Below are positions 16,230 to 20,062 of a stretch of 21,336 nucleotides of DNA, in pieces. A model generated the notes under the pieces. It worked only from the letters and a program-made list of their open reading frames with translations, had not been told where the DNA came from and ran no database searches. Numbering within the stretch: the first letter of the stretch is position 1; each line of letters begins with the position of its first letter. This DNA comes from a virus: positions 1 through 21,336 of the IMG/VR virus record IMGVR_UViG_3300009285_000825. One strand, given 5' to 3'. Made by a program: the position numbers and the translations under genes.

Positions 16230-16403
16230 CTATCGCTTGGCCTTGCCGCGGCGCCTTACCGCGGCGTTACCCGCGCGCACCGCGCGACCTTCGTTTCCCG
16301 TTTGGGCCAGCACCGAGTTCGCCACACCCGCCCAGAGGCGCTTCTTTTTCGCCGAGGACGCGGCCCGGGTATGCCGGGCCGCGTCGCTGGAACCCCAGGG
16401 CAT
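16230..16403 (-). CDS. Small basic phage protein, 57 aa
   Basis: A 57-residue frame starting MPWGSSDAARHTRAASSAKK with KKRLWAGVANSVLAQTGNEG in the middle and a basic end (NAAVRRRGKAKR). The pattern HTxxAxxxKKxxxWAxVANSVLxxTGxEGxAxRxxNAAV is one I recognise from many short phage proteins of unknown function; most lie among structural genes. The ATG overlaps the stop of the HNH gene (TGATG) and a GAGG lies seven bases upstream within that gene; the stop overlaps the next SD. It is likely a genuine gene that was originally next to the capsid gene before the HNH gene arrived. Confidence 0.75.
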   Translation of the reverse strand: MPWGSSDAARHTRAASSAKKKRLWAGVANSVLAQTGNEGRAVRAGNAAVRRRGKAKR

Positions 16404-17131
16404 CAGCCAATCCTCACTTTGGTGATACCAAAAACCGAAAACACGAGACCAGAAATCACAAACTCATCGCCATCTTTGCCAATACGAATGTCGTGAATCT
16501 TGCGATGACACGTTCCGCATAAGCAAATCAGGTTGTCGATGCCGTGATCGTTCATCTCAGCCTCGGTCCTGTAAAATGCGTGGTGAACGTGCGGCTTGCA
16601 CTCGACACCGCAGGCCCGACACTTCCCGCCATCGCGCTCGATGGCCTGTTTCTTGGCGCGCTTCCACGCCGAACCGTTGAGGCGACGGTTGTATGGTCTT
16701 GTGTCTGCTGCGACGGAGCGCCTGGCCGTCGCAATTTTTGCGCATTCCGGAGAACAATATTTCGTTTTTCCGACGCCGAATTTGTTCGGCATGAACGCCA
16801 GACCACAGATTGCACATTCTCGTTTGGCGCGTTCTAAACGCTGCGCAGATTGCCGCCTCCGCATCGCGTTCATCCGCGCTTCGTTGCATTTGACCGAACA
16901 GGTCAGCGCACCCGAATGTGTCGGGTCCGTAATGAATTGAACCCCGCACACCACGCATAACCGGCGCAATTCCTCCTCCGTCTTCGGTGGATTGCGGCGC
17001 CGCCAATGACGCCGGTTGTTCGCCACCTGTCTGCATCGAGGGCCGCAATACGTCTGCCGCCCTCTGCCGAAGTTCCTGCTGTTCGCATCGAATGCCGTCT
17101 CGCAGATGACGCATTTTTTGATGCTCTTCAT
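16403..17131 (-). CDS. HNH endonuclease with three Cys knuckles, 242 aa
   Basis: The C-terminal 75 residues are an HNH nuclease with the Cys4 zinc site: C171-x2-C174, H183-H184 (HVHH), N200, C205-x2-C208-H209, H213. Before it lie three repeats of C-x2-C ... C-x3-C (residues 7-33, 59-82, 106-130), each followed by an Arg-rich helix, which probably bind DNA. The start at 17131 is preferred over one eight codons earlier because GGAGG precedes it. It sits alone between the capsid gene and a small phage gene, the usual position of a free-standing homing endonuclease, and is AT-richer than its neighbours (26 of 60 G+C at 16441-16500). Its SD is buried in a long hairpin. Catalytic residues are complete, so it may be active; its cut site is unknown. 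Confidence 0.85.
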   Translation of the reverse strand: MKSIKKCVICETAFDANSRNFGRGRQTYCGPRCRQVANNRRHWRRRNPPKTEEELRRLCVVCGVQFITDPTHSGALTCSVKCNEARMNAMRRRQSAQRLERAKRECAICGLAFMPNKFGVGKTKYCSPECAKIATARRSVAADTRPYNRRLNGSAWKRAKKQAIERDGGKCRACGVECKPHVHHAFYRTEAEMNDHGIDNLICLCGTCHRKIHDIRIGKDGDEFVISGLVFSVFGITKVRIG

Positions 17132-17132
17132 G

Positions 17133-17171
17133 GTGACCTCCGTGGAAAACTGCATTTTCCACTTTGGTCAC
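17133..17171 (-). promoter_or_regulatory. Long hairpin sequestering the HNH ribosome-binding site
   Basis: On the minus strand GTGACC (17171-17166) pairs with GGTCAC (17138-17133) and GTGGAAAA (17162-17155) pairs with TTTTCCAC (17149-17142), around a five-base loop, with a 3x3 internal loop between the stems. The SD GGAGG is 17141-17137, lying in the internal loop and outer stem. The ATG follows one base after the stem. This would block ribosome access on a long transcript from the capsid gene. Confidence 0.75.
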
Positions 17172-17234
17172 ATAGAAGTCAAATGGCGTCTGTCTGTTCA
17201 TCTTGTCTTCCGACGCGTTCATGTAAATGCTTGA

Positions 17235-18152
17235 TTAGGAAACCAAAGCTCCGATGATCCACCGCCAGTTTGCATAGGTCATTCCGTAACGCATGTACCC
17301 GCGCCATTTGCCGACCAGGGTATCAAAGTCTTCGACCATGGCGAATTCCATCGGCGTGCGATCCGACCAGAACAGGTACATCTTCCGCGCCCGGGCCTCG
17401 CACATGAACCAGTTGTTGGTATCGGTCATGTGGTGCCACTCGTAGGGCGTGTAGCGGCCTTCGTGGAAGTTGCGGTTGTTGTACGTCGTATCGACCTTGC
17501 CGGTGCTCTTGATGATCTCGAACCCCTTTTCCGACAGATCCGGCGGATACCAGAGTTCGTCCGGCCCCACGTCGTACTTGCCGGCCTGATCGTCCCTGAA
17601 CTTGGTCATCTGCAAGCGCGTCGTGAACACCGCAGTTGCCGTCAAGGCATCGGTCACCAGGTTATCGAAGCCGCTCGCTGTCGATGCCCCGGAGGTCGTG
17701 GTGTGCGAATCCGAGCACAGCGCGACGCCCTCACTGTGGTTGTAGAAGTAGGTGTCCACCGAGAAAGCGTTGTTGAAAATCCGCGCCGCATCCTTCTCGC
17801 GCCGACGGTAGCTGCCGCGGATCAAGCCCTTGGGACGCTGATCGAAAATGTGATGCTGACCGTCGTCGTAGAGCTTGCGTTCGACCTGGATGCCCTTGGC
17901 GAACTCCACCGGAGTCAGGGTCACGTCGTAGCCCTGGTTGATGGACGAGTACGGGATCGTCCCGGTGAATTCGTCCCAATCGGGCAGCGTTCCGATCTCG
18001 CTGAAGGTCATGTTGTTGCGCCCGTTGGTCCCGACGTTGGTGTACAGCGTCGAGATCATCGATTTCAGATCCTTCTGTTCCTCGTGGAACATCTTCTGAA
18101 ACCTCGGATCCAAAACATCGGGGAATGCGCTTGAAAGCATTGGGGTTGCCAT
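17235..18152 (-). CDS. Major capsid protein (HK97-fold, Mu gpT-like), 305 aa
   Basis: MATPMLSSAFPDVLDPRFQK begins a protein with an extended, partly helical N-arm (KMFHEEQKDLKSMISTLYTN), an E-loop-like region (TPVEFAKGIQVERKLYDDGQ), a spine helix (RRREKDAARIFNNAFSVDTY) and the A-domain (PDELWYPPDLSEKGFEIIKS, then ARKMYLFWSDRTPMEFAMVE). It ends RYGMTYANWRWIIGALVS. The pattern of SHTTTSG, then ALTATAVFTTRLQMTKFRDD, and YANWRWI is typical of Mu gpT-type capsid proteins. AAAGGAG six bases upstream is a strong SD. It follows the scaffold-decoration cluster, as expected. No embedded intron or frameshift is visible. Confidence 0.85.
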   Translation of the reverse strand: MATPMLSSAFPDVLDPRFQKMFHEEQKDLKSMISTLYTNVGTNGRNNMTFSEIGTLPDWDEFTGTIPYSSINQGYDVTLTPVEFAKGIQVERKLYDDGQHHIFDQRPKGLIRGSYRRREKDAARIFNNAFSVDTYFYNHSEGVALCSDSHTTTSGASTASGFDNLVTDALTATAVFTTRLQMTKFRDDQAGKYDVGPDELWYPPDLSEKGFEIIKSTGKVDTTYNNRNFHEGRYTPYEWHHMTDTNNWFMCEARARKMYLFWSDRTPMEFAMVEDFDTLVGKWRGYMRYGMTYANWRWIIGALVS

Positions 18153-19297: not shown

Positions 19298-20062
19298 TTA
19301 TCGCCTGACTCGCGGCTTTGCGAATTTGAGTTCTTCCTTGACCTCGGTCCAGTCTTTGTAGACGCCCTGAGAGATGGCGTGCTCGTAGTACGCTTTGAAG
19401 CGCGGTTCCAGATTCTTTGGAGGACCATCCTTGTCCTCCGCGCCCGTGTCGCGTTCCGCCGATCCACCTGTCTCCGCAAAAGTCTCCGCAGGACCAGACC
19501 TGCCTGTGGCTCGTGAGCGCCGAATCGCCGCCGGATCGCCAAAGGCCGCCCGCATCGCGGCAACCTCGGTGCCCTTGGTCGCTGGAAACCCCATCCCGAC
19601 AAGCGCCTCGTACTCTCGTGCGACTCGCCCCCGGTCCTTCGTCCCCGGCTCCCAGGCATCCGGGACCAAACTGCGGTATTCGGCCAGATCGGCTTCGATC
19701 CTGCCCGACACTTCCCGCTGCCTGACCTCGTTTGCCGCCGCCGCCGCCGCCCGGGTTTCCGCCGTCGCAATTACCTGGCGTTCCCACTCGGCATCGGCCG
19801 CTTCCTGCGTCAGCTTGCCGTCGGCTACCGCCGCGTTCAATTCCGTCCGGGTCAACGCCTTGGGTTTCGCGGCTTCGACCTGCGCTTTCGCAAGAGCTTC
19901 GCGCTCCGCGTTCGAGCGGGCCAGATCGCCACGCAATTCGTTGATCCGCGAATCGAACACTTTCTTCGGTATCCACGAACCATCAGAAGGAGGTACAAAT
20001 TCGCCGCCCTTCTGCGACTCTTTGCCAGATTGAGCTTCTGACCCTTCCGTTTCAGTGCTCAT
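19298..20062 (-). CDS. Putative capsid scaffold protein, 254 aa
   Basis: A highly charged, Glu/Ala/Arg-rich protein without cysteine. It has an acidic disordered start (MSTETEGSEAQSGKESQKGG), a long predicted coiled coil (RINELRGDLARSNAEREALA, then TRAAAAAANEVRQREVSGRI), a central helical part, a disordered linker (GSAERDTGAEDKDGPPKN) and a basic C-terminal helix (TEVKEELKFAKPRVRR). This plan and its place between portal and major capsid genes are those of internal scaffolds. The start has no good SD; an upstream 15-codon frame overlaps it (ATGA). It is the first gene after the promoter at 20130-20158. A run of GCC-type codons (19734-19752) encodes the Ala stretch. Confidence 0.7.
   Translation of the reverse strand: MSTETEGSEAQSGKESQKGGEFVPPSDGSWIPKKVFDSRINELRGDLARSNAEREALAKAQVEAAKPKALTRTELNAAVADGKLTQEAADAEWERQVIATAETRAAAAAANEVRQREVSGRIEADLAEYRSLVPDAWEPGTKDRGRVAREYEALVGMGFPATKGTEVAAMRAAFGDPAAIRRSRATGRSGPAETFAETGGSAERDTGAEDKDGPPKNLEPRFKAYYEHAISQGVYKDWTEVKEELKFAKPRVRR

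Follow-up and report, generated by a model that had tools for sequence, protein, structure and literature searches.

What does a hairpin that lies across the translation start of an HNH endonuclease gene, directly behind the major capsid protein (MCP) gene of a phage, do for the expression of that gene? The question arises in a 21-kb record of an uncultivated tailed phage (IMG/VR record IMGVR_UViG_3300009285_000825, positions 1 to 21,336; 'the window' hereafter means this whole stretch of 21,336 nucleotides), where an initial annotation had proposed that the hairpin gates the HNH gene by burying its ribosome-binding site. The best explanation, which we consider likely, is that the hairpin and a promoter of the gene's own together constitute an expression switch of a free-standing, homing-type HNH gene, in the style of the dual control described in phage T4.

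The HNH gene and its insertion behind the capsid gene

The minus strand of the window carries the structural genes, with those at 20062, 19297 and 19011 preceding the MCP gene (Table 1). The HNH gene follows after a gap of 103 nt, and its stop codon overlaps the next small gene as TGATG. As a scan of the minus strand of the window found no terminator-like site between the start of the MCP operon and the HNH gene, read-through RNA is expected, and the MCP gene would be its source across the HNH leader. The small gene that follows the HNH gene has a perfect 12-bp hairpin within its start (GACGCGGCCCGG/CCGGGCCGCGTC, 16357-16385), the most stable local fold of the window.

Table 1 Features of the HNH locus in the window, and leader hairpins of its relatives with the cost of opening positions -13 to +3 (read-through RNA/own RNA, kcal/mol).
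Feature	Position	Strand	Details
Terminator-like (intrinsic) hairpin	20189-20169	minus	Precedes the promoter-like element
Promoter-like element	20158-20130	minus	TTGACA-17-TATTGT; probable structural-operon start
MCP gene	17235..18152	minus	Mu gpT / Phage_capsid_4 type; Pfam PF25209 and PF10124; PHROG_371 major head protein
Stretch resembling the MCP 3' part at 17302-17329	17161..17188	plus	20/28 matches; overlaps -35 and lower 5' arm
Sigma70-like promoter	17154..17182	minus	TTGACT-17-GAAAAT; unsupervised consensus scan, 9 of 12
RNA hairpin over start region	17133..17171	minus	Lower stem 17171-17166/17138-17133; upper stem 17162-17155/17149-17142; loop 17154-17150
Shine-Dalgarno (SD) GGAGG	17137..17141	minus	5 nt before ATG
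HNH endonuclease gene	16403..17131	minus	242 aa; PHROG_1271 HNH endonuclease, E = 2.5e-27
L002 hairpin			CGTGA..CCCT..TATAGC/GCTATA..AGGG..TCACG-ATG; 12.8/3.9
L003 hairpin			ATACATGAC..CTCCAG/CTGGAG..GTCATGTAT; 16.7/5.4
L020 hairpin			GTACGCTTCGGTG/CACCGGAGCGTAC-CG-ATG; 19.8/6.0
L048 hairpin			CCATAACG..CCTC/GAGG..CGTTATGG; 15.9/9.2
L091 hairpin			GTTTCTATGA..GTACTC.CC/GGGGGTAT..TTATGGAAAC; 18.1/3.0
L143 hairpin			TGTCCGGTC-agagga-GATCGGGCA-TGG; SD in apical loop

The encoded protein has three zinc-ribbon-like modules (CxxC..C) followed by an HNH nuclease domain whose catalytic residues (HVHH, N and CxxCH..H) are intact, and conserved over the seven homologues described below. Its PHROG_1271 match spans both the zinc modules and the HNH domain, which it thus shares with the HNH endonucleases of that group; in the papers that could be searched we found no description of leader control for these. 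The Pfam HNH score is 17.1 bits, under the cut-off of 21.4, and there are profile matches to the HNH domains of IscB and GVE2. A structure model (mean pLDDT 81, pTM 0.38) returned matches at the level of the HNH domain from the PDB, none with E < 0.001. Among isolated phages the only related sequences were haloviral (23-30% identity for the HNH protein, 21-27% for MCP), and a search of bacterial genomes found no HNH homologue.

The gene is present in seven lineages and absent from most related phages, and wherever it is present it occupies the same junction behind MCP. In HNH-less relatives a TGATG or TAATG overlap frequently joins the MCP gene to its downstream neighbour and the leader is absent together with the HNH gene, which points to promoter, hairpin and HNH gene as one inserted cassette; these would travel as a unit, with MCP and the small gene after it flanking the insertion site. 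The MCP tree unites the window with L020 (support 99/98), whereas the HNH tree parts the two across a 100/99 split, a conflict that indicates movement of the HNH cassette. On the sequences, the best reading of the gene is that of a free-standing, homing-type endonuclease gene.

Hairpin and promoter-like element in the leader

On the minus strand, 17171-17133 reads GTGACC aaa GTGGAAAA tgcag TTTTCCAC gga GGTCAC, and a single C separates it from the ATG at 17131, so that the start codon begins one base after the stem, as had been noted. The 39-nt hairpin of 14 base pairs in two perfect stems that the initial annotation described holds in position and stems; folded alone with RNAfold, it forms 6 bp plus 9 bp (eight and a closing U-G pair) at -19.4 kcal/mol. 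What needs revision is the SD, which had been taken to be flanked by the stems: half of it is paired, with GG in the lower stem, and GGA lies in a 3x3 internal loop between two firm stems, so that its being 'buried' depends on the stems that enclose it. An additional 4-bp helix (CTTC/GAAG) can enclose the ATG as well.

In a 136-nt context the structure has a z score of -3.6 and none of 200 shuffles reaches the same stability. Its stability by itself is unexceptional, since 327 of 14,194 45-nt segments of the GC-rich window equal it; what is exceptional is its position on a start site. Opening positions -13 to +3 costs 19.6 kcal/mol, which is matched by a single start among 422 from other genes of this phage group (the controls used throughout, themselves called by a simple rule), and the cost stays at 18.1-19.9 kcal/mol over fold contexts of 60 to 700 nt. 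We looked for a more stable fold with the SD open and found none, and the leader matches no known RNA family in Rfam.

Upstream of the apex lies a sigma70-like promoter that escaped the initial annotation. Within the 100-nt leader no site scores higher, and 13 of 500 shuffles do as well; its predicted -10 sits in the upper 5' arm of the hairpin and its predicted transcription start, at about 17147, falls just beyond the apex; a better promoter site in such a placement occurs at only one of the 422 other starts. The -10 (GAAAAT) is weak, and the consensus scored is that of sigma70. The RNA predicted to start here lacks the 5' arm, and its start region opens at 3.0 rather than 19.6 kcal/mol. A T4-type late promoter (TATAAATA) was not found, a sigma70-like element standing in its place, so the leader would work like the T4 leaders without being a T-even member.

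The resemblance of part of the leader to the 3' end of the MCP gene is weak (p = 0.004 against dinucleotide shuffles). Among six leaders compared, it recurs in L003 at another spot of the MCP end (p = 0.014), reaches p = 0.09 in L048 and is absent in L002, L020 and L091. The stretch is a possible operator or homing-site copy.

Leaders of diverged relatives

By protein searches and by surveying MCP loci across IMG/VR we obtained six further, diverged HNH homologues, every one directly behind an MCP gene, which makes seven with the window, all from uncultivated phages. Their identity to the HNH protein of the window is 53-54% for L002 and L003, 43% for L048, 34% for L020 and L143 and 31% for L091, whose leader is identical to those of L092 and L093. 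The leaders of the relatives cannot be aligned and have no invariant column, and their arms vary and still pair, so that structure and geometry are kept without sequence. In L003, L048 and L091 the start codon itself lies within the stem, as the hairpins run through the ATG.

The start region is strongly closed in six of the seven leaders, at 12.8-19.8 kcal/mol compared to 6.5 +/- 3.1 for the 422 other starts. L143 has no clear gate, with an ordinary opening cost of 8.8 kcal/mol and a predicted gain on the short RNA of merely 1.0. Taken together, the seven leaders exceed the controls in opening cost (Mann-Whitney, p = 4e-8), in promoter score (p = 4e-6) and in how much the long and the short RNA differ (p = 5e-7), and none of the 422 controls equals the leader of the window on promoter and difference jointly.

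A TTGA(C) promoter-like element that puts the predicted start near the apex is found in all seven leaders, and the top-scoring site, chosen by score alone, places the start -7.5 to +5 nt from the apex in the window, L002, L003, L020, L048 and L091. The -10 elements of L020, L048, L091 and L143 are poor, and shuffled leaders equal the promoter score in 81 of 500 cases for L048 and 170 of 500 for L091. Comparison of the sequences gives good support to the idea that the hairpin gates translation; the internal promoter, a prediction, is supported by its placement across the seven homologues. The design has the appearance of a genuine on/off switch under selection, since the relatives retain it with unrelated sequences.

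No close relatives with partial changes in the arms were found, L001 being identical to the window here. The distant HNH genes L094-L110 showed no MCP context when examined and were left out of the comparison. One of them, in L095 (2660-2700), has TTGAAC-17-TATAAT; an AT-rich hairpin, which ends at the ATG, holds the -10 in its 5' arm, and there is no clear SD.

A probable T4-style switch and its alternatives

Dual control and its spread among T-even phages have been described for I-TevI, I-TevII, I-TevIII, segB and Aeh1 mobE (PMC2988022, PMC3014915). As positive controls we took I-TevI and segB from the T4 record, and our folding gave 14.3/4.9 and 15.5/5.5 kcal/mol on long/short RNA, and in both the late -10 falls within the 5' arm. 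The neighbouring T4 genes mostly have low opening costs, but some are closed too (for example, alc at 15.5), so closure alone is not proof; the signature is closure of the start together with a promoter in the arm. The parallel with I-TevI that had been drawn from the hairpin is therefore apt and extends further, to a promoter that overlaps the 5' arm as in I-TevI and segB.

The window shares with I-TevI, as with I-TevII and I-TevIII, a start that is closed on RNA initiated upstream, a promoter in the 5' arm and a short RNA that is open. Whereas I-TevI has a T4 late promoter, sits in a group I intron (td) and is a GIY-YIG enzyme, the window has a sigma70-type promoter, no intron that we could find, an HNH enzyme and a capsid gene as host gene. 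T4 segB and mobE of Aeromonas phage Aeh1, the latter an HNH gene like that of the window, are likewise free-standing between phage genes with a hairpin and an internal promoter, but belong to T-even phages, use late promoters and lie at tRNA or nrdA loci. Closure of the ribosome-binding site in an inhibitory structure is also known from T4 gene e (lysozyme) and soc, with late promoters within the 5' strand of the structure in gene e (PMC3014915); these resemble the window in the closure but are ordinary phage genes, not mobile endonucleases. In the open-access papers that we searched, we found no report of such combined hairpin and promoter control outside T-even phages. New here relative to the T4 set are the sigma70-type promoter, the location at a capsid gene and a set of natural replicates whose sequences are unrelated.

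Read-through RNA from the capsid operon carries both arms and these, as sequence and folding show, lock the SD and the start region. Because of this lock, we propose, little endonuclease would be translated from the abundant capsid message; the silence on read-through RNA that had been claimed for the HNH gene is thus supported by the modelled opening cost. In the window the MCP stop codon lies 63 nt before the foot of the hairpin, a distance at which terminating ribosomes would not open it. Transcription from the predicted sigma70 promoter, with its -10 in the 5' arm and its start probably just past the apex, would instead yield a short RNA without the 5' arm, on which the SD is exposed and translated. 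The HNH gene would thereby be insulated from capsid-gene dosage and expressed through its own promoter. Coupling to MCP translation was considered and rejected, the hairpin foot lying 17-79 nt past the MCP stop.

A host-type promoter could mean that the endonuclease is made early and the late capsid RNA is muted by the hairpin, the reverse of T4. In T4, I-TevI is in addition a repressor of its own promoter, acting at an operator similar to the homing site of the enzyme (PMC2988022). A bolder, joint version of the switch, in which early expression would let the incoming DNA of a co-infecting phage be cut and the enzyme would also repress itself through a leader copy of its capsid target, strikes us as unlikely.

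Distinctly unlikely, in our view, is a hairpin that gates translation with no internal promoter, to be opened by a protein, temperature, RNA cleavage or a small RNA, or else keeping the gene near-silent. Such a gate would suit a hairpin that is strong in every fold context, the weak -10 of the window and the poor ones of several relatives, but it does not account for the near-apex placement of the TTGA(C) element in seven of seven leaders or for promoter scores above those of other starts. As for temperature, the cost falls just from 22.2 to 18.0 kcal/mol between 20 and 45 C, an effect too small for an RNA thermometer.

The arms also form a 24-nt inverted repeat, 75% complementary, and the leaders of the window and L003 resemble the MCP 3' end much as I-TevI operators resemble the homing site (PMC2988022), all of which would suit a feature at the DNA level, either a site at which the HNH protein or another dimer binds as operator or recognition sequence, or what is left of an insertion boundary. 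We regard this as highly improbable, since the arms are unrelated even where the proteins are 53-55% identical, three of the hairpins extend through the ATG itself and empty sites carry no palindrome; the earlier suggestion of a boundary remnant or recognition palindrome accordingly finds no support, the more so as the foot of the hairpin is set 17-79 nt beyond the end of MCP. Six such empty sites (L006, L015, L016, L017, L018 and L111) show only the junction of MCP and the next gene. That the structure arose by chance in a phage rich in GC, or serves the capsid message simply as a terminator or as an RNA-processing hairpin, is scarcely credible: many hairpins in the window are equally stable, and strong hairpins with the SD uncovered follow MCP in the HNH-less L067 and L069, but a start region closed in six of seven homologues is something that few of the 422 controls match. 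As for a terminator, no T run follows the hairpin and the scanner does not call one.

Finding the T4-style design in diverged, uncultivated phages suggests a recurrent solution for keeping a mobile nuclease in a high-output operon without overproducing it. Its signature, a hairpin that covers an SD and has the -10 of a promoter in its 5' arm, could be searched for to find gated mobile nucleases elsewhere, and the window with its relatives offers a testable case that has natural replicates.

Further genes at these loci make the capsid gene region, as far as can be judged from sequence, a hotspot for putative endonuclease genes. Sense LAGLIDADG genes lie at the same MCP 3' junction in L021 (2157-2637), L022 and L073 (956-1430); their starts overlap the MCP stop and they have no hairpin leader, an expression strategy opposite to that of the hairpin-gated HNH gene at the same site. 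Antisense LAGLIDADG genes lie directly behind MCP in L072, L171 and L178. The L178 gene has its SD closed by a minus-strand hairpin (TTCCTT..ATGGC/GCCAT..AAGGAA; 10.5 versus 1.6 kcal/mol) situated some 45 nt before the ATG in GGAAAAATCATGCTCACC, and a TATACT -10-like element lies in the loop of this hairpin; unrelated endonucleases at the MCP site may thus have evolved the same switch. An endonuclease VII-like HNH gene is found one gene downstream of MCP in L086 (4113-4499), and in L006 (2435-2990) a LAGLIDADG gene shortly precedes MCP.

The hairpins between MCP and the next gene in L067 (3700-3745) and L069 (1440-1480), which are relatives of L002, have 14-15 bp and are perhaps elements for processing or stability of the capsid mRNA. 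In L010 (2900-2970), and in L011 and L012 too, a tRNA-like sequence with a TTGACA promoter-like element of its own immediately precedes an HNH gene.
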